From Deltaproteobacteria bacterium (GTDB lineage: Bacteria > Myxococcota > Myxococcia > SLRQ01): a stretch of 64,000 bases of DNA. Below the pieces are notes generated by a model, which saw only the letters and a list, made by a program, of their open reading frames with translations, did not search any database and was not told the origin of the DNA. Within the stretch, counting starts at the first letter, position 1. Every line of letters begins with the position of its first letter. A program made the translations under genes and the position numbers. Of this stretch, positions 20,741 to 29,948 are shown one piece after another. The DNA lies in contig JARGFU010000006.1 of assembly GCA_029210625.1 (NCBI GenBank), positions 186,001-250,000 of the forward strand, read 5' to 3'.

Positions 20741-22306
20741 TCAGCGCCGGCGCCGCCGGAGGAGGAGCCCGCCGAGCAGGGCGGCGAGCAAGGCTGCGGG
20801 GGCCTCGCCGCCGGGCGTGCCGCACTCGGCGCCGCCGCCACGGCCGGTGATCACGAGGTCGACCTGGGGCGAGACGACCTCGTAGGCCTCGCTGCTGCCC
20901 TCCAGGCCGAAGCCCACCACCACGAGGCTGGAGGCGGAGAGGCGGCCGAGCTCGGGCATGGCCTCGATCTCGAAGGTCCGCTGGTCGCCGGCCTGCATGG
21001 CTCCGACCACCACGCTTCCGTCGAGCCCGCTCACCGGCACGCCGTCGATGGCGAGGGTCTGCAAGCCCACGTGAGCCGGCTGGATCACGACCTCCTCGAG
21101 GGGCAGCTCCGAGGGGACCGTGACCGAGAGCTGCAGCCGCACGGCCTGGCCGGCGACGGCCTTCCGGGAGAGCTGCACGTAGTCCAGCGTGACGTAGGTG
21201 CCGCCCTCCTCCGGGGCCTCGACGATGAGCTGGGTCTGGCGGGCGCTGATCAGCTCGGGCGCCGTGACCTCCACGGTCCTCCGCCCCGGGTGCGGGTAGT
21301 CCACGTAGAAGGTGGCCAGGTTGGAGCTCGCCTCGAGCACGGCGAAGTCGGTGTCCCGGGCGCAGAGGGGGTCGGGGCGCGTGTAGAGGCTCGAGCGGAT
21401 CAGGGTGATCTTGGTGTCCTCCGGCGGGGGGCGCGGGTTGCCCTCCAGGTCCTGGGCCTGCACCCGGATCGGCGGCGAGCACTCGGAGGGGCCGAGCACC
21501 CGGGGCGGGGTCACGAAGACCAGGCGGCCGCTGGGGTTACGCACCTGGAAGGGGGCGGTGAAGGCGTTGTTCGTCTCGTCCAGCTCGGGGATGCGGTCGT
21601 CGAGGTCGGCCAGGAGGCCGAGCTGGTAGGTGCCCAGGGGCAGCTCCTCGGGCAGGCTGAAGGCGACGGTGATCTGGTCTCCCTCGCCCGGGAGGAGGTT
21701 GCCGATCCAGCGGGTGTGGATCCGGGTGTCGTTGTTGGTGACCTGCTCGTTGTCGGAGAGGAAGACGCCGAGGTCGAAGCAGCAGACGGTGCCCGTCCCC
21801 TCGTTGGCCAGGGTCACCTGTAGCTTGACGAGCGCCCCCGCCGCGGCGCTCGAGGGGATGCTGGCCGAGCGGATCGTGATGTCGGCGGACACCTCGAAGG
21901 TCATCGTGTCCTGCTCCAGCCAGTTGTTGTCCTCGTCGGTCTCGTCGACGTCGCCCTCGGCGTCGACCTTCGCGGCCAGGTAGTAGACGTCGTCGCGGTA
22001 GTCGCCCGGGCTCTGGATCTCGAAGGTCACCGGGAGGGAGGCCCCGGCGGGCAGGCTCGCGACCACCGTGCGGCCGAGGTAGTCGCAGGAGGTGGTCACC
22101 ACCGGGTGGTCGTCGCTCCAGATCCGGATGGCGAAGGCGCCGGCGTCCACCGTGCCCTGGTTCTCGACCGTGACCGTGACCTCGAAGGGGGTGCCGGCGG
22201 GGGCCGAGGGCGGCGCGGCGAGCTCGGTGACGATCAGATCCTGGGCCAGGGCGGGAGCCCCCACCCCGAGTGCGGCCAGACAGACAACGATCCGCTTCCA
22301 GCTCAT
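20741..22306 (-). CDS. CARDB-repeat exported protein with sorting-tag-like C terminus
   Basis: A 521-residue protein with a Sec signal peptide (cleavage near ALAQD). Two CARDB-type Ig-fold repeats (about residues 24-130 and 135-240) carry the hallmark DVDETDEDNNW and RIPELDETNNAF motifs. The C-terminal third is beta-rich. The last 30 residues have a Cys-containing Gly stretch (GGGAECGTPGG), a hydrophobic helix and a terminal run of five Arg. This tripartite form resembles MYXO-CTERM and related exosortase/rhombosortase-type sorting tags. The Shine-Dalgarno GGGAGGGG precedes the ATG. It is convergent with the patatin gene. Confidence 0.8.
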   Translation of the reverse strand: MSWKRIVVCLAALGVGAPALAQDLIVTELAAPPSAPAGTPFEVTVTVENQGTVDAGAFAIRIWSDDHPVVTTSCDYLGRTVVASLPAGASLPVTFEIQSPGDYRDDVYYLAAKVDAEGDVDETDEDNNWLEQDTMTFEVSADITIRSASIPSSAAAGALVKLQVTLANEGTGTVCCFDLGVFLSDNEQVTNNDTRIHTRWIGNLLPGEGDQITVAFSLPEELPLGTYQLGLLADLDDRIPELDETNNAFTAPFQVRNPSGRLVFVTPPRVLGPSECSPPIRVQAQDLEGNPRPPPEDTKITLIRSSLYTRPDPLCARDTDFAVLEASSNLATFYVDYPHPGRRTVEVTAPELISARQTQLIVEAPEEGGTYVTLDYVQLSRKAVAGQAVRLQLSVTVPSELPLEEVVIQPAHVGLQTLAIDGVPVSGLDGSVVVGAMQAGDQRTFEIEAMPELGRLSASSLVVVGFGLEGSSEAYEVVSPQVDLVITGRGGGAECGTPGGEAPAALLAALLGGLLLRRRRR

Positions 22307-22428
22307 CCGCCCCTCCCGTGCCCCGCACGAAGTCACGCCGATCCAGGGTAGTCGATGCGCCGCACTAGGAGCCACCCACCTTCGGCCGTAGAATCCCCGC
22401 GCTCTCGCGAAACGAAGAAGGAGAGGCC

Positions 22429-24474
22429 ATGCGATCCGCGCTCCTGCCCGTCCTCCCGCTCCTGCTGGTCCTGCTCGGCTCGGTGCCCACCGCCGCCGGG
22501 GCGCAGCCCGTGACCCTCCTCGAGCAGGACACCCAGGCCTTCGTCCAGGACGACGGGGGGATGGACGTCATCTATGCCCTCACCTTCCGGGACAACGAGG
22601 GGCGCAGCTTCATCCGCCAGGCTGGGCCCTTCTACTCGCCGGTCCACTTCACCCGCGCCCTGCTGCGCGAGGGTGAGGCCACCCACGAGGCGAGCGTCTC
22701 GGCGGTGGGCGGGGACTACTACCGGATCGACTTCGGCGGCTTCTCCACCCGCGCGGGCGGAACCTACACGATCGAGCTGCACCACCGCTACGACAAGCTC
22801 TTCGTCGAGCCCGCCGGTGCGGTCGAGGGCGTGGAGACGGTCGCGGTCTGGTTCAACCCCATCCGCTGGGTCCTGCCGATCGGGAAGTCGGTGATCCACC
22901 TGGTGCTGCCCCTGGCCCTCGATCCCGCGGTCGTCGCGGAGCACGAGGACATCACCCCCGCCATGGTCGACGGCTTCGGGCTGAAGACCGATCCGGCGAC
23001 CTTCGGGCAGCAGGATCACCAGGCCTGGGTCTACACCGACTACCGCGAGGAGCGCCGGCTCACCGTCTACGCCGAGCAGAAGGGGATGGCCGCCGAGGAC
23101 GTGCACCTGCTTCGGCTCTACCTCCCCCGGGAGGCCTTCCCCGAGCTGCGCCTCACCGAGACCGTCGAGCACCAGCCGGACGGCGTCCCCGACCTCGCGC
23201 AGGGCTACCCGGGCGAGGACTCCTCTGCGGAGTACGACGAGTCCCTCACCCTCGAGGAGGTCATCGGCGGCCTCGTCCTCTGGACGATCTTCGCCTTCGT
23301 CTTCAACGCCCTCCTCCTGGGGATCGCCTTCCTGATCCTGGGGCTGCCGCTCTGGATCATCGACCGTCTCGCCGGGACCCGCCTGCTCCGGAGGGTCTTC
23401 CTGCCGGCGGGCAAGTTCAAGGTCATCGGCCTCTTCTCGGGGACGATCTTCGGCCTGACCGGGACCCTGGTCCCCCTGCGGCTGCTCTGGATGCTGATCG
23501 CGGGGATCTTCGCGGGCGTCGTCTCGCTGCTGCGCCTGCATCCCGTGATCGGCCGGTGGCTGGAGAAGGAGGGCCCCGAGTACCTGGCGCCGGAGATCAC
23601 GGTCGCCACCTTCCAGAAGCCCGGGCACGTCGTGGACCTGGAGGCCGAGGAGGCCGCGCTCCTCGGGCACCGGCCGATCAAGGCCGTCAACCTCCTGGTG
23701 CTCCAGCTCCAGGAGGCGGGGGCGGTGCGCATCGTCCGGCGCAACCCCCTGCAGCTGGAGATCGTCGACGCCGGGGAGGCGGCCACCGAGGCCCAGCGCA
23801 CGCTCCTCCAGCACATCGACGAGCGTGGCCTGCTCTCCCGCAAGGGGGTGCAGGAGGTGCTGGCGCAGCTGGCGACTCAGACCCGGGCGAAGACCTGGCG
23901 GGCCGACACCGAGGCGACCCTGGCCCGGGCGCAGGGCCGCTCGGAGGAGGCCTGGCGGGTCCTCGAGGCCACGCCCGAGGTCCGGCGCGGCGAGACCTTC
24001 CAGCACCACTACGCCTGGCTCTACCTCCACGACGGCTTCTTCGATCGCAGCAGCGACACCCTCGGCACGGTGGCCCCGAGCGCGCCCGCGGACTCGGCCC
24101 TCGCCGCCCTCACCTCGGCGCGCACCGAGCCGACCCTGGGCGGGGTTCCCGCGCAGGTGCAGGGCTTCGCCGAGGGGCTGGTCACCAGCATCGAGTCGGG
24201 GGCGGCGGCGACGGTCGAGGGCCTGGAGCGCTTCTTCAACTTCGACAACGACGCCGTCGCCAGAGCCGAGGCGACCGAGGCCGCCCGGGCGGCGGGCGCG
24301 AACATCGCGCTGCCGGCCATCGCCACCCAGGGCTACGACGCCTGCCACTCCGCCTGCCACTCGGCGTGTCACTCGGCCTGCCACTCGGCGTGTCACTCGG
24401 CCTGCCACTCCGCCTGCGCCTGCCACTCGGCCTGCCACTCCGCCTGCGTCTCCTCCTGCGCCGGGAGCTTCTAG
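22429..24474 (+). CDS. Membrane protein with C-terminal Cys-His-Ser-Ala repeat tail
   Basis: A 681-residue protein. It has a signal peptide (to about residue 25), a beta-rich extracytoplasmic domain like DUF2207 (about 26-270), hydrophobic segments at about 277-307 and 330-367, then a soluble part with a winged-helix-like section (PIKAVNLLVLQLQEAGAV). Residues 639-681 are eight CHSA units in blocks of six and two, ending CVSSCAGSF, with 11 Cys and 8 His in total. The Shine-Dalgarno GAAGGAG precedes the ATG. The stop TAG is directly followed by the ATG of a radical SAM/SPASM gene. By analogy to CXXX-repeat and His-Xaa-Ser radical SAM targets, the tail is probably the substrate of that enzyme; a metal-binding tail is the alternative. 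Confidence 0.8.
   Translation: MRSALLPVLPLLLVLLGSVPTAAGAQPVTLLEQDTQAFVQDDGGMDVIYALTFRDNEGRSFIRQAGPFYSPVHFTRALLREGEATHEASVSAVGGDYYRIDFGGFSTRAGGTYTIELHHRYDKLFVEPAGAVEGVETVAVWFNPIRWVLPIGKSVIHLVLPLALDPAVVAEHEDITPAMVDGFGLKTDPATFGQQDHQAWVYTDYREERRLTVYAEQKGMAAEDVHLLRLYLPREAFPELRLTETVEHQPDGVPDLAQGYPGEDSSAEYDESLTLEEVIGGLVLWTIFAFVFNALLLGIAFLILGLPLWIIDRLAGTRLLRRVFLPAGKFKVIGLFSGTIFGLTGTLVPLRLLWMLIAGIFAGVVSLLRLHPVIGRWLEKEGPEYLAPEITVATFQKPGHVVDLEAEEAALLGHRPIKAVNLLVLQLQEAGAVRIVRRNPLQLEIVDAGEAATEAQRTLLQHIDERGLLSRKGVQEVLAQLATQTRAKTWRADTEATLARAQGRSEEAWRVLEATPEVRRGETFQHHYAWLYLHDGFFDRSSDTLGTVAPSAPADSALAALTSARTEPTLGGVPAQVQGFAEGLVTSIESGAAATVEGLERFFNFDNDAVARAEATEAARAAGANIALPAIATQGYDACHSACHSACHSACHSACHSACHSACACHSACHSACVSSCAGSF
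24343..24444 (+). repeat. 12-bp tandem repeat encoding CHSA units
   Basis: Eight copies of a 12-bp unit encode Cys-His-Ser-Ala, six in a row, a CysAla spacer, then two more. The copies differ at third positions (TGC/TGT, TCC/TCG, GCC/GCG), so selection has kept the protein repeat rather than the DNA repeat. Confidence 0.9.
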
Positions 24475-25905
24475 ATGGAAACGGCACTCCACCAGCGCAT
24501 CGACGACTTCGTGGCCTCCACCCGGGAGGTGCTCTTCGTCCGGGAGGCCGACGGGGTCCTGATGATCCGGCCGGACAAGACCCTGGGGCTCAACGAGAGC
24601 GCCGCCACGATCCTGCGGGCGCTCTACCGGCCGGGGAGCGAGGGCGCCGCCCGCGAGCTGCCGCGCCTGGCGAAGAGCTTCCGGATCCCCGTCGAGCGCC
24701 TGGAGTCCGACGCCTCCGATCTCATGGGCGCCGTGCGGGCGCTGCTGAACGAGGACTACAGCCCCCGCCCGGGGCTGCGCTTCGACGTCTTCGATCCCGG
24801 CACGGTCCGCTATCCGACCCTGGCCGAGATCGCCCTGACCTATGGCTGCCAGAACCGCTGCCTCTTCTGCTACGCCTCCAGCCCGCACCGGGAGAAGTCC
24901 CAGCGGACGATGAGCACCGAGGAGGTGAAGCGGGTGATGGAGATCATCTACCGCGAAACCCACGTCCCCTCGCTCTCGTTCACCGGGGGCGAGGCGACCC
25001 TGCGCAAGGACCTGCCGGAGCTGATCGCCCACGGCAAGGCGCTGGGGCTGCGGATCAACCTCATCTCCAACGGCGTGCGGCTGGGCGACGAGGCCTACGC
25101 CGCCTCGCTGGCCCAGGCCGGCCTGGACTCGGCGCAGCTCTCCCTCGAGGCCGCCGAGGCCGGGCTCCACGATCGGATCGTCGGCAAGCCCGGGGCCTTC
25201 GCGAAGACGGCGGCGGCGGTCGGGCACCTGCAGCGGCACGGCGTGCACGTCCACACCAACACCACCCTCAACCGGCTCAACCTGGAGCACGCCGAGGCCC
25301 TGGTGCGCTTCGCCGCCCGCGAGCTGAAGACCTCGGTCTTCTCCATGAACCTGGTCATCCCCACCGGCGAAGCCCTGCGCGACGAGGAGGAGATCGGCGT
25401 GCGCTACGACGCGGTCGCCGGGCGCCTGCCGGCGATCCTCGCCACCTCGAAGGAGGAGGGGATCCGCTTCGTCTGGTACTCGCCCATCCCCTACTGCCTC
25501 TTCAACCCGGTCCTCCACGAGCTGGGCGCCAAGTCCTGCGCCTGCGTCTCGGGGATCCTCTCGGTCGATCCGGCCGGGCGGGTGCTGCCCTGCTCGAGCT
25601 TCGAGGCGAGCGAGGGGATGGGCTCGCTCCTGGAGGAGGGCTACGAGGCGATCCGGGAGAAGGAGGCGGCGCGCTACTGGAGCGAGCGGCGCTACGTGCC
25701 CGAGGCCTGCAAGGCCTGCCCGGACCTGGACGTCTGCGCCGGCGCCTGTCCGCTCTACTGGGACGCCGCCGGCAGCTTCGAGCAGATCCCCGGCGCCGCC
25801 GGGCGGGGCGACCGTGAGGGCTACGCTCGCTGGAAGGCCGGCCGTGAGGCGAGCGCCACCTTCGGGGTCCGCCCGGTCGAAGAGGACGAGAGGAGGGTTT
25901 CCTGA
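24475..25905 (+). CDS. Radical SAM/SPASM peptide-modifying enzyme with PqqD-like N terminus
   Basis: A 476-residue protein. Residues about 1-95 look like a PqqD/RRE peptide-recognition domain. The radical SAM motif is Cys125-Cys129-Cys132 (CQNRCLFC), with FTGGEATL as the GGE motif. The SPASM-type C terminus has Cys355, Cys357, Cys373, Cys412, Cys415, Cys421 and Cys425, enough for two auxiliary Fe-S clusters. Such enzymes form thioether or C-C crosslinks in RiPP precursors. The gene starts right after the TAG of the CHSA-repeat protein and its stop overlaps the next start (TGATG), so the order is strictly coupled. No separate small precursor peptide is seen nearby. The enzyme call is firm; the substrate is inference. 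Confidence 0.88.
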   Translation: METALHQRIDDFVASTREVLFVREADGVLMIRPDKTLGLNESAATILRALYRPGSEGAARELPRLAKSFRIPVERLESDASDLMGAVRALLNEDYSPRPGLRFDVFDPGTVRYPTLAEIALTYGCQNRCLFCYASSPHREKSQRTMSTEEVKRVMEIIYRETHVPSLSFTGGEATLRKDLPELIAHGKALGLRINLISNGVRLGDEAYAASLAQAGLDSAQLSLEAAEAGLHDRIVGKPGAFAKTAAAVGHLQRHGVHVHTNTTLNRLNLEHAEALVRFAARELKTSVFSMNLVIPTGEALRDEEEIGVRYDAVAGRLPAILATSKEEGIRFVWYSPIPYCLFNPVLHELGAKSCACVSGILSVDPAGRVLPCSSFEASEGMGSLLEEGYEAIREKEAARYWSERRYVPEACKACPDLDVCAGACPLYWDAAGSFEQIPGAAGRGDREGYARWKAGREASATFGVRPVEEDERRVS

Positions 25906-27152
25906 TGGGTGACCTGCAAGGCTTCGGATCGCAGCTCGAGGGCTGGAAGCGCGTGCTGGCGCGCACCGAGAAGCGGCTCTGCGAGGTGCAGGAGAAGTAC
26001 GAGAGCTTCTTCGCCGAGATCGAGAAGGCCCGGGAGGGAGAGCTGGCGCAGCTGGGCGCGCACCTCCTGGAGAAGCGCGGCAGCCTGCCCGAGGGGCTCG
26101 ACGCGAAGCTCGACGCGGCCTGGAAGGAGGCGGAGGCGGCCCTGGAGAAGGAGCTCGCCGCCCTGCGCGAGCGCCAGGCGCTGCTCGACCTCCAGGCTGA
26201 GGAGGCCCGCCGACGCTCCGAGGAGGAGGAGCAGAAGGTGCACGCGAAGAACGTGGACCTCGACCTGAAGGAGGAGGCCCTGAAGGTGAGGGCCGCCGAG
26301 CTCCTCTCGCGGATCGAGGGCTACCAGCAGCAGCTCCGCGAGCTCGGCTCCGGCTTCGGCTTCTTCTCGAACCTCTTCGCCCTGCGCGACCTGAAGCGGG
26401 AGCGGGACGTGCTCCGGGAGGAGCAGGAGGACGTCCTCGGCCGGATCGAGGGCCTGCGGAACTCCTGGCAGAAGGCGGACGGCAAGTGGGCCGAGCTCGA
26501 GGTCCAGCTGCGGGAGATGTGGATCGAGCGCACGACCCAGGCCCAGGCGGTGCAGGCCAAGATCGACCACATCGAGCAGGTCCGGCCGCAGCTCCTGGAG
26601 CGCAGCGCCCTGGAGAAGGTGCTCTTCGAGCGCGAGCCGGTGCTCCCGGCGGTCCCGACCACCGGGGCCCGACCCTGCGAGCGCTGCCAGACCCCCAACC
26701 ATCCCGAGCAGCACTTCTGCGCGATCTGCGGCAAGCGCCTGCTGGAGGACCGGCCGGACCTCCTCGGCTCCCTCCTCGAGGTCGCCGAGCTCAACCTGCA
26801 CCACCGGCGCTTCTCCACCGGCGTGAAGGCCTGCCAGGAGATCATCGGCCTGGTGCGGGGCCTCATCTCCGGGCTCTCGAACTTCAAGGAGAGCGTCGAG
26901 GGGATGATCGACACCGAGAACCGCTACCCGGTGGGCAAGCTCGACATCGACGTGCCGGGCGCCGCCGTGCAGTACGCGAAGCATTTCGGGCAGCTGGAGT
27001 CCGCCGCCAACGTGGAGAAGGGCTTGCACCCCCGGGACTTCGCGGCGCAGATCGAGGCGGTGATGGAGAAGACCTACACCGAGGAGAAGATCCAGAGCTT
27101 CTTCGAGACCATGGGCGAGGAGCTCTCGCGCCAGGCGGACAGCCAGTGGTGA
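25905..27152 (+). CDS. Coiled-coil protein with central zinc ribbon
   Basis: A 415-residue soluble protein. Residues about 1-230 are long coiled coils rich in Glu, Lys and Ala. A zinc ribbon follows with paired CxxC motifs (CERC at 258-261 and CAIC about 12 residues later). The remainder is helical. No catalytic motif was seen. The Shine-Dalgarno AGGAGGG precedes the ATG, which overlaps the radical SAM stop. The position third in the CHSA operon suggests a scaffold or partner of the maturation machinery; function is unknown. Confidence 0.72.
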   Translation: MGDLQGFGSQLEGWKRVLARTEKRLCEVQEKYESFFAEIEKAREGELAQLGAHLLEKRGSLPEGLDAKLDAAWKEAEAALEKELAALRERQALLDLQAEEARRRSEEEEQKVHAKNVDLDLKEEALKVRAAELLSRIEGYQQQLRELGSGFGFFSNLFALRDLKRERDVLREEQEDVLGRIEGLRNSWQKADGKWAELEVQLREMWIERTTQAQAVQAKIDHIEQVRPQLLERSALEKVLFEREPVLPAVPTTGARPCERCQTPNHPEQHFCAICGKRLLEDRPDLLGSLLEVAELNLHHRRFSTGVKACQEIIGLVRGLISGLSNFKESVEGMIDTENRYPVGKLDIDVPGAAVQYAKHFGQLESAANVEKGLHPRDFAAQIEAVMEKTYTEEKIQSFFETMGEELSRQADSQW

Positions 27153-27162
27153 AGGGGACGAG

Positions 27163-27693
27163 ATGAAGCGGCTCTCCGGATCCCTCCTGACCCTCTGCGG
27201 CGTCCTCGGTGTCCTCCTCGGGCTGCTCTTCCTGGTCGGCGCCGACGGCCAGCTGCGCCGCCTGGCCATCGCCGCGGTGGGCCTCTTCGGGGGCGCCGCT
27301 GCCACCGGCCTGGGTCTGAAGCTCCTGCGGGTGGCGCGCTCGGAGGAGCCGGAGGTCCTGGCCTCGCGGATCCTCACCCTGGCGCGCACCTCGGAGGGTG
27401 AGCTCTCCCGGGGTGAGCTGCTGGCCGAGCTCGGAGCCCTCGGCGGCAAGATCGACGCGGCGATGCTCCTCCTCGAGGCGCGGGGGGTCTGCCAGCGGAC
27501 CGAGGCGGGCGCGAACCCCACCTGGATCTTCCCGGCCTTCCAGACCGAGGTGCTGGTGCGCCGCTGCGAGTTCTGCGGCGCCGAGCTGCCCCTCCACGAG
27601 CAGCTGGCCAGCTGCCCGAAGTGCGGCGGCACCATCGCCACCGGGGTGGAGCGCTTCGCCGCCGGCGGCGACAGCTACTCGATGGACGAGTAG
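27163..27693 (+). CDS. Small membrane protein with winged-helix and zinc-ribbon segments
   Basis: A 176-residue protein. Two hydrophobic helices (about residues 5-27 and 33-52) are followed by a helical winged-helix-like region containing RGELLAELGALGG and a zinc ribbon (CEFC and CPKC, 14 residues between pairs). The last 20 residues are flexible. The Shine-Dalgarno GAAGGGG lies 5 nt before the ATG, 10 nt after the previous stop. It is the last gene of the CHSA operon. The winged-helix plus ribbon pattern echoes the soluble part of the CHSA-repeat protein. Its 3' end overlaps the convergent kinase gene by 19 nt. Confidence 0.7.
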   Translation: MKRLSGSLLTLCGVLGVLLGLLFLVGADGQLRRLAIAAVGLFGGAAATGLGLKLLRVARSEEPEVLASRILTLARTSEGELSRGELLAELGALGGKIDAAMLLLEARGVCQRTEAGANPTWIFPAFQTEVLVRRCEFCGAELPLHEQLASCPKCGGTIATGVERFAAGGDSYSMDE

Positions 27694-29948
27694 CGCTCTC
27701 CGCCCGACTCGCCGTCGAGGATCTCCCGGACGAGCCGCGCCAGGGTGAGGACCGAGAAGGGCTTCTCCAGCAGGGCCGCCAGGGCTCCCCGCTCACGCTG
27801 GTGGGACTCGAGGCCGGCGCCGTAGCCGGTGGCGAGGATGCAGGGGAGCTCGGGCCGGCGGGTGTGGAGCTCGTGGCAGAGCTCCAGGCCGGTCATCCCG
27901 GGCATCCCCTGATCGGTGACGATCAGGTCGATGGCCTCGGGCGAGGCGTCGAAGAGCTCCAGCGCCGCGGCGCCGTTCGTGGCGCTGAGCACCTTGTAGC
28001 CCAGGCCCTCGAGGTACTGCCGGCTCATGGCGAGGATCACCGGCTCGTCGTCCACCAGCAGGAGGGTCTCCTGGCCCGTGGGCAGCAGCGCGGCCGCCCG
28101 GGCGCTCGCGGTCACCTGCTCGCCCCCCTCCACGAGCGGCAGCATCACCGAGAAGGTGGTCCCCACCTCGGGCCGGCTGTCGACCAGGATCCGTCCGCCG
28201 AGCCCCTGGACGATCCCGTGCACCACCGAGAGCCCGAGCCCCGTCCCCTGGCTCCCCTCCTTGGTGGTGAAGAAGGGGTCGAAGATGCGGTCCAGGACCG
28301 AGGGGTCCATCCCGCAGCCGTCGTCGCGGACCTGGAGCCGGACGCTGTGGCGGATCGGCGCGGGCTCCGCGCCACCTTGCTCGAGGGGATCCTCGATCCG
28401 GTCCAGCCACACCTCGATGGTGCCCTGATCGGCGCCGATGGCGTGGGCCGCGTTGGTGCAGAGGTTCAGGATGATCTGGTGCACCTCGGTCGGCTCGGCC
28501 GCCACCACCAGGGGCTCCTGGGGGAAGTGCCGCTCGAGCTCGATGTTCGCCGGGAGGGAGGCGCGCAGGAAGCTCAGGCTCTCGCCGACGAGGGGCGCCA
28601 GGGTCAGGGGGGAGCGGCACTTCTGCTCGCCGCGGCTGAAGGTGAGCATCTGGCGCACCAGATCCCCGGCCTGCTCCGCCGCCACCACCACCTGCCGGAG
28701 CTTGTCGCGCATCGGGCTGTTCTCGGGCAGCTCGTGCATCGTCATCTCGGAGAGCCCCAGGATGGGCGTGAGCAGGTTGTTGAAGTCGTGGGCGATCCCC
28801 CCGGCGAGGACGCCCAGGCTCTCGATGCGTTGAGTGCGGCGGCGGTGAGCCTCGAGGCTCTCGCGCTCCTCGGCGATCCGGCGCTCGGCGGTGAGGTCGA
28901 TGATGATGCCCCGCAGCTCCACCGGCTCGCTCTCTCTCGCCAACACCGAGACGATGTCCCGGACGAAGAGGATGGTGCCGTCGGGCTTGACCATCCGGTA
29001 CTCGAGCGCGTGATCCTCGAGGCGGCGGGTGGCGCCCAGGCAGGTGTCGATCGCCTCCTGCCGGTCCTCCGGGTGGATCATCCCGGCCCAGGCGTCGAGG
29101 TCGGTCCAGGCGGCGGCCGGGTACCCGGAGATCGCCCCGGCCTGGGGTCCCACGTAGGTGAAGCGGCGGCTCTCGAGGTCCAGCTCCCAGGTGATCACCT
29201 GGGTCGACTCGACCAGGAGCTGGTAGCGCTGGGCGGACGCCAGGAGCGCCTCCTGGTCGGCGTCGTGCTGGCGCATCGCCCGCCACCGCCTCCGGCCCCA
29301 GAGGGCCAGCCCCAGCAGGCCGATCCCCCAGACGGCGCCGTGCCAGCCCAGCATCAGCCGGGTGTGGGTGTCGGCGATCGCCTGGTGCCGGACCATCGGC
29401 AGCTCCGTGAGGATCACGCCGAGGAGCTCGCCCTCGCGCTTGTCGGAGTGACAGCGGATGCAGCCGGGCCCGGCCCGCAGGGCGGCCAGGCTGTGGACCA
29501 TCGGCTTCCCCTCGTGGTCGAACACGGCCGAGGAGGTGTTCGCGCCCGCCAGGATCGGGGCGAGGGTCCCCGCCAGATCGGTGTGGCCGGTGAGGGCCAG
29601 ACCGTCGATCCGGTGTAACTCCAGGGAGGCATCCGCGTGATCTCCCGGGGGCGCCGCGCCGGAGGGGTGGGGGTGGAGCTGCTGCAGCAGGGTGGTGGCC
29701 GTGACCCGCTCCCAGCCTTCGGGGATGGGGGTGTCCTCGGTGGGCGGCGTGAAGATCCCCGGAGGCTGCATGATCCGCCGCAGCACCCGCGCGAAGCCGC
29801 GCAGCTCACCCTCGGCCTCCTCGATGGAGTGCTCCCGCGCGTTCTTCTGCTCCTGCGTGATCTGCGTCCCGAGCGAGATCCCGAGGATCAGGGTCCAGGC
29901 GAGGGCCAGCACCACGGGGGGCTGGAAGGGTCCCTTGTCAGCGGCCAT
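27675..29948 (-). CDS. Hybrid sensor histidine kinase with heme-c-type sensor domain
   Basis: A 757-residue protein. An N-terminal membrane helix (about 11-29) is followed by a periplasmic domain (to about 195) with a covalent heme motif CIRCH (Cys163, Cys166, His167), as in DUF3365/Tll0287-like sensors. A second helix (about 198-217) leads to a PAS domain (240-360), a HisKA domain with phosphoacceptor His387 in GGIAHDFNN, an HATPase with DDGCGMD and GTGLGLS, and a C-terminal receiver with Asp679 in VTDQGMPG. It probably senses redox or a ligand gas. No separate response regulator lies next to it. The Shine-Dalgarno GGTGGTGAGAG supports the start. Confidence 0.9.
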   Translation of the reverse strand: MAADKGPFQPPVVLALAWTLILGISLGTQITQEQKNAREHSIEEAEGELRGFARVLRRIMQPPGIFTPPTEDTPIPEGWERVTATTLLQQLHPHPSGAAPPGDHADASLELHRIDGLALTGHTDLAGTLAPILAGANTSSAVFDHEGKPMVHSLAALRAGPGCIRCHSDKREGELLGVILTELPMVRHQAIADTHTRLMLGWHGAVWGIGLLGLALWGRRRWRAMRQHDADQEALLASAQRYQLLVESTQVITWELDLESRRFTYVGPQAGAISGYPAAAWTDLDAWAGMIHPEDRQEAIDTCLGATRRLEDHALEYRMVKPDGTILFVRDIVSVLARESEPVELRGIIIDLTAERRIAEERESLEAHRRRTQRIESLGVLAGGIAHDFNNLLTPILGLSEMTMHELPENSPMRDKLRQVVVAAEQAGDLVRQMLTFSRGEQKCRSPLTLAPLVGESLSFLRASLPANIELERHFPQEPLVVAAEPTEVHQIILNLCTNAAHAIGADQGTIEVWLDRIEDPLEQGGAEPAPIRHSVRLQVRDDGCGMDPSVLDRIFDPFFTTKEGSQGTGLGLSVVHGIVQGLGGRILVDSRPEVGTTFSVMLPLVEGGEQVTASARAAALLPTGQETLLLVDDEPVILAMSRQYLEGLGYKVLSATNGAAALELFDASPEAIDLIVTDQGMPGMTGLELCHELHTRRPELPCILATGYGAGLESHQRERGALAALLEKPFSVLTLARLVREILDGESGGERYSSIE

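Follow-up and report, generated by a model that had tools for sequence, protein, structure and literature searches.

The window, a 64,000-nucleotide stretch of a Myxococcota genome (contig JARGFU010000006.1, positions 186,001–250,000), contains a four-gene operon on the + strand at positions 22429–27693. Its reading frames and their spacing are confirmed as given in a preliminary description of this DNA. The first gene (22429..24474) encodes a membrane protein of 681 residues with a divergent scaffold of the DUF2207/TIGR04222 type and a C-terminal tail of Cys-His-Ser-Ala (CHSA) units. Homologues of this protein are encoded by six further genomes among 195 of the window's phylum that were searched at the protein level. 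The stop codon TAG (24472–24474) is directly followed by the ATG (24475) of the second gene (24475..25905), which encodes a radical SAM (rSAM)/SPASM enzyme of 476 residues, a member of a family linked to the CHSA tail. The stop codon TGA of the rSAM gene (25903–25905) overlaps the ATG of the third gene (25905..27152) by one base. The third product, ZR1, is a coiled-coil protein of 415 residues with one zinc-ribbon-like motif. Its stop codon (ending at 27152) lies 10 nt from the ATG at 27163 of the fourth gene (27163..27693), and the product of this gene, ZR2 (176 residues), has hydrophobic N-terminal segments and a putative C-terminal zinc ribbon. Long ORFs on the − strand flank the operon (20741–22375 and 27675–29948). 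By eye, they appear unrelated to it; thus, the unit is considered to consist of the four genes.

According to the AlphaFold2 model and the hydropathy profile, the N-terminal signal peptide of the membrane protein is followed by a predicted extracytoplasmic beta-sandwich domain (residues 28–240; 22510..23148), in which the pLDDT values are mostly 91–98. In the Foldseek search, this domain matches the N-terminal beta domain of M1 aminopeptidases and OST1. The transmembrane region (23251..23541) comprises residues 275–315 and a second hydrophobic stretch, residues 343–371, and long helices are modeled here. The predicted cytoplasmic domain (residues 400–550; 23626..24078) is helical with a winged-helix-like start, and the model confidence of residues 400–540 is mostly 86–97. 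The family-invariant residues P388, W490 and D493 are located inside or adjoining this domain. The ectodomain is modeled with confidence, and the tail is disordered in the same model.

The 681-residue protein alone matches neither the DUF2207 nor the TIGR04222 HMM, for which it is too divergent. Among 55 members of the CHSA family, however, 23 match DUF2207 (best E = 7e-8) and 19 match TIGR04222 (best E = 7e-9). By these profile matches, the CHSA host protein belongs to the DUF2207/TIGR04222 superfamily through its family members. The close relatives in the phylum are 915–956 residues long, and the window's version lacks about 270 residues between residues 248 and 282. The absent part may be a second beta domain. 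In two other loci (L102:3870-5538 and L062:2986-4410), the membrane protein appears to be split across two reading frames, probably owing to assembly frameshifts or pseudogenes.

In most of the homologues checked, the hydropathy profile shows a signal peptide and a single strong membrane span with basic residues after it. This topology places the tail in the cytoplasm, on the same side as the enzyme, and the cytoplasmic side is the more likely one. The window's protein has the second hydrophobic stretch 343–371, unlike its one-span relatives, and the side of its tail is therefore less certain.

The last 43 residues of the protein (24343..24471), the presumed substrate of the rSAM enzyme, were correctly described as a repeat of eight CHSA units. 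The tail reads six CHSA units, CA, two further CHSA units and CVSSCAGSF, and contains 11 Cys and 8 His residues.

The rSAM enzyme shows solid Pfam matches to Radical_SAM (E = 1.4e-24) and SPASM (E = 8.3e-6). A PqqD-like front end had also been proposed. By sequence the match is weak (Pfam PqqD, E = 0.078, below the cut-off), but a front domain of that layout is present in the structure model (pLDDT 93). This RRE/PqqD-like domain (residues 2–91; 24478..24747) is modeled as three strands and then three helices, and the rSAM barrel and the SPASM region come after it. The best PDB matches of the enzyme, by sequence and structure, include SkfB, SuiB, CteB, anSME and PqqE, and the Foldseek alignments with SuiB and CteB are nearly full-length. 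The CX3CX2C motif corresponds to C125, C129 and C132, and the SPASM region (25495..25758) contains C341, C355, C373, C412, C415, C421 and C425. These ten Cys residues are invariant in 66 aligned members of the CHSA-linked family, for which a set of 92 sequences was collected. With the CX3CX2C motif, the SPASM Cys set and an RRE-like front domain, the last predicted mainly from the model, the enzyme has the features of RRE-containing rSAM/SPASM peptide maturases. None of the NCBIfam maturase models reaches its cut-off on the window's rSAM enzyme. Elsewhere in the genome of the window, four radical SAM genes are located within about 11 kb (G000 contig C14, ~54100–65200, L029).

Conservation and distribution of the tail

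The window's protein was compared with 54 homologues, and the average identity is 23.6% in the body and 79.8% in the tail. The invariant columns of the family alignment fall mostly in the tail. Of 1007 tail cysteines scored, 969 (96%) are preceded by Ala, and 950 (94%) have His at position −3. The third position of the unit is freer (CHSA 765, CHDA 79, CHNA 18, CHGA 13). The tails vary in length and spacing among the homologues, and their ends carry constrained signatures (CVSGG[AS][HR], CACAGGGR, CVSGGFR and CVS[SNR]F).

Selection on the CHSA amino-acid sequence had been deduced from third-position variation within the window's tail. This variation is only modest (TGC/TGT, TCC/TCG, GCC/GCG), but the codon mix across the family upholds the conclusion. 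The Ser residues of the tails are encoded by TCN in 682 cases and by AGY in 294 cases. The use of both codon families indicates that the peptide is conserved, not a DNA repeat.

Genome contigs were searched for codons of CHSACHSACH, and at least 116 stretches were matched. A handful of them (e.g. L057, L073, L097 and L144) were rejected as chance or non-tail matches; the others are C-terminal tails, mostly on proteins of about 500–950 residues. As lower bounds, the CHSA tail is present in more than 100 proteins of more than 30 bacterial and archaeal phyla, including Thorarchaeota, Heimdallarchaeota, Thermoproteota, Chloroflexota, Spirochaetota, Planctomycetota, Bacillota and Thermodesulfobacteriota. 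Most of the loci come from metagenome-assembled genomes, in which binning errors are possible. A viral origin was rejected: the pattern-matching viral contigs carry other short ORFs, and the fetched stretches contain no homologue of the four proteins. Near-identical short ORFs with CNSA/CHSA repeats are present on three viral contigs (L147:2895-3089, L148:6022-6303 and L150:6495-6689), with no rSAM homologue in the fetched stretch.

The co-occurrence of the tail and the enzyme, proposed as a check of the pairing, is essentially complete. Of the 195 genomes of the phylum, six contain the tail pattern, and the same six, with no others, encode the rSAM family (E ≤ 1e-90). In a Chloroflexota-centred set of 301 genomes, three encode the rSAM enzyme (scores of at least 597 bits), and CHSA tails are present in each of them. 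Among the matches listed, the rSAM gene is directly downstream on the same strand in 99 of 113 tails, a set that includes a few re-fetches of one contig. In Thor-type archaea, the rSAM gene is divergent and upstream of the tail gene, and one Thermoproteota contig has the rSAM gene before the tail gene. The operon linkage is not absolute, as a few tails are far from the rSAM gene. Tails with no rSAM gene nearby had been named as evidence against the pairing; such tails occur in a few loci, but each of the ten such genomes searched encodes the rSAM family elsewhere (434–650 bits). These distributions also bear on whether the tail, being a short tandem repeat, could be a functionless expansion at the DNA level linked to the rSAM gene by chance. 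The synonymous codons are mixed, with Ser drawn from both families, and the tail is retained across the phyla together with one enzyme family. Such an origin is refuted by these observations and deserves virtually no credence.

The order of membrane protein, rSAM and ZR1 genes is kept in five of the six further genomes of the phylum, ZR2 was detected in four, and the sixth locus ends at a contig edge. Two types of operon were distinguished by clustering the neighbours, for which loci with overlapping ORFs removed were used. Among the matches listed, tails of the CVSGG[AS][HR] type are accompanied by a third gene of about 340 residues with hydrophobic stretches in 67 of 80 cases and by ZR1/ZR2 in none. 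Tails ending in F are accompanied by ZR1 in 24 of 27 cases and by the ~340-residue gene in none. The rSAM tree separates the two types with full support, and the Thor-type sequences adjoin the clade with the ZR genes. The window belongs to this four-gene clade, in which ZR1 is kept directly after the rSAM gene and ZR2 is retained.

The two zinc-ribbon genes had been regarded as parts of the system. Their spacing is correct, but the Pfam zinc-ribbon calls are below threshold (DZR, E = 4.1e-4 in ZR1). ZR2 has four invariant Cys residues, and its C-x2-C...C-P-x-C pattern is kept in 18 of 18 homologues. As ZR1 and ZR2 are limited to one clade and most relatives have a different third gene, they are lineage partners and are ruled out as core parts. 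In WOR-3 and Aminicenantes loci (L087:7414-7830(-), also L030, L054, L079, L082 and L126), a conserved gene of about 135 residues is located just upstream of the CHSA gene. It matches no Pfam family above the cut-off, and its relatives are found near the CHSA gene in Thor-type archaeal loci.

Sister enzymes and CACA tails

The rSAM profile also detected ten Chloroflexota-centred enzymes at 305–330 bits, which form a sister subfamily. In ten of ten loci, the sister gene adjoins the gene of a protein with a CACACACAGGGR-type tail, in which alternating Cys and Ala are followed by GGGR. With the tail excluded, homology between these CACA hosts and the CHSA hosts extends over 469 columns (hhalign, E = 1.1e-41). 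The sister enzymes keep the same Cys set, C341 included. The CACA tails contain neither His nor Ser, and Ala-Cys is the sole element common to both types of tail. In most of the Chloroflexota-centred loci (L188–L197), a membrane zinc-ribbon gene is located upstream, and several have a second, shorter rSAM-like gene.

The genome of the window also has a CACA-type cluster, which is located on another contig (L028:6681-11549; G000 contig C3, ~145700–150550). It consists of a membrane zinc-ribbon gene, an rSAM gene, a second rSAM-like gene whose product has no CX3CX2C motif, and a gene for a membrane protein ending in CACAGCACACACAGGGR. The rSAM enzyme of this cluster is 34–37% identical to that of the operon. 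Another genome (G215) carries both types, and a pattern search detected CACA tails in three other genomes of the phylum.

Thus, the enzyme subfamily predicts the tail type. That the scaffold and the enzyme are shared and the tail type goes with the enzyme subfamily is the strongest argument from computation for the tail as the substrate. We infer that the CHSA tail is, with high probability, the substrate of the rSAM enzyme. The same evidence bears on a reading in which the tail stays unmodified and binds a metal or an iron-sulfur cluster, and the rSAM enzyme has another substrate, such as a partner protein or a small molecule used by the same membrane complex. Cys and His are metal ligands, the window's clade has two zinc-ribbon partners, and the tail is variable in length and spacing, as this reading would allow. 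However, the enzyme has the architecture of a peptide maturase, its subfamily switches along with the tail type, and the larger clade retains the tail and the rSAM enzyme without zinc-ribbon partners. An unmodified tail is accordingly improbable. Because enzyme subfamily and tail type are strictly paired, a direct test of the substrate question is feasible.

Proposed maturation of the tail

As a working model, which we hold to be somewhat better than an even bet, the operon would be a maturation system for a protein tail: the rSAM enzyme would modify the tail, most likely by forming thioethers, and the tail would stay on the protein as a built-in element. The newly made membrane protein would have its beta domain on the outer side, a membrane anchor and, in the cytoplasm, a half that ends in the CHSA repeat, and the rSAM/SPASM enzyme would recognise it via the RRE-like front domain. 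In the case of CteB, a peptidyl cysteine coordinates the auxiliary cluster (PMC8172795). By analogy, a tail Cys would be held at the auxiliary iron-sulfur cluster of the enzyme. Then the 5'-deoxyadenosyl radical would abstract hydrogen from a carbon close by, a C–S bond would form, and the reaction would be repeated along the tail. The likeliest product would be thioether links in series, each joining a Cys to a nearby carbon; many of the tail Cys residues are most likely modified, perhaps in this way. The finished Cys-rich tail would be a structural, metal-binding or redox element of the membrane protein beside the membrane; a membrane-tethered metal or redox element is our leading guess. In the window's clade, ZR1 and ZR2 would act as helpers or as partners of the finished complex, and in the other clade this part would fall to a different membrane protein.

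The same fold is found in enzymes that catalyse several other reactions, which counts against certainty on the thioethers. The rSAM enzyme could modify the tail by epimerisation, C–C or His cross-links, formylglycine-type oxidation of Cys, or methyl or cyclopropyl changes. The rSAM–SPASM architecture performs several reactions in the matched families (SkfB, SuiB, CteB, PqqE, anSME and TigE), and the His and Ala residues of the tail are kept as strictly as Cys, so that either could be the residue changed. On the other hand, CACA tails share only Cys and Ala with CHSA tails, and it is Cys that naturally supplies the sulfur in the reactions of SkfB/CteB-type enzymes. A modification other than thioethers is thus the less likely outcome, though one to be taken seriously.

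It is also conceivable that the modified tail is cleaved and released, the membrane protein being the carrier of a RiPP-like product. The constrained signatures at the tail ends would suit such processing. However, the neighbour clustering revealed no protease or exporter family common to the loci, and most of the protein is a conserved domain, not a leader. We consider release very improbable and prefer the reading in which the modified tail stays on the membrane protein.

Comparison with known systems

The preliminary description pointed to CXXX-repeat and His-Xaa-Ser systems as known cases in which repeat peptides are modified. Like the operon, the CXXX-repeat systems (maturase TIGR04115, Syntrophobacter target TIGR04117) combine Cys at every fourth residue with an rSAM enzyme. 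TIGR04117 is a short target model of 98 positions, whereas the CHSA repeat ends a membrane protein of about 500–950 residues. TIGR04117 is weakly matched by 13 of the 55 CHSA-family members (best E = 3e-4) and does not match the window's 681-residue protein. A TIGR04115 search of the window's genome (E ≤ 1e-3) gave three matches, none of which exceeds the cut-off or corresponds to the window's rSAM enzyme. In the His-Xaa-Ser systems (HxsB/HxsC), a repeat containing His and Ser likewise adjoins an rSAM enzyme, but two rSAM proteins and a small target are involved. The window's enzyme scores 92.6 bits against the HxsC cut-off of 267.9 bits, and no second rSAM gene is present in the operon. With scores below the cut-offs, membership in the CXXX, His-Xaa-Ser and other named rSAM families is ruled out.

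SkfB, SuiB and CteB (sactipeptide/ranthipeptide type) also have an RRE-like front domain, an rSAM barrel and auxiliary clusters. They differ in that their identity to the window's enzyme is about 15–21% in structural alignments and their substrates are short leader-containing peptides. Most known targets of rSAM modification are short peptides. Here, the apparent target is the tail of a membrane protein that is conserved in lineages as distant as Clostridia and Asgard archaea; this distribution points to a basic role in the cell, not to a natural product. Proteins rather than peptides are modified by the rSAM/SPASM enzymes QhpD, which introduces thioethers within the gamma subunit of QHNDH, and anSME (PMC8172795). 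Their targets are enzyme subunits or sulfatases, whereas here the long repetitive tail of a membrane protein would be modified.

The tail of a full membrane protein as substrate had been presented as a different architecture. A published precedent exists, since Cys-rich C-terminal tails of full TIGR04222 membrane proteins were proposed as substrates of adjacent MNIO (DUF692) oxidative enzymes (PMC12452194); the enzyme class differs. The TIGR04222/DUF2207 proteins belong to the same superfamily as the window's host family according to the HMM matches, and in both a full membrane protein ends in a Cys-rich tail. The published cases are linked to MNIO or to no enzyme, and their tails are rich in Ser and Gly with interspersed Cys, whereas an rSAM/SPASM enzyme and a strict CHSA repeat are found here. 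The MNIO (DUF692) model has no match among the four operon proteins. The published TIGR04222 ('near_uncomplex') tails are predicted to be periplasmic (PMC12452194), in contrast to the CHSA tail, for which the cytoplasmic side is more likely. In the part of the open-access literature that was searched, no paper was found to name either tail type or the DUF2207–rSAM pairing.

A broader proposal is tentative, and we give it slightly less than even weight. Across bacteria and archaea, Asgard archaea among them, a widespread class of membrane proteins may carry an enzymatically built Cys-rich polymer as a permanent cytoplasmic part for metal binding, redox or sensing. The CHSA and CACA chemistries would be performed on one scaffold, each by a separate rSAM subfamily, as a counterpart of the MNIO-linked TIGR04222 proteins.
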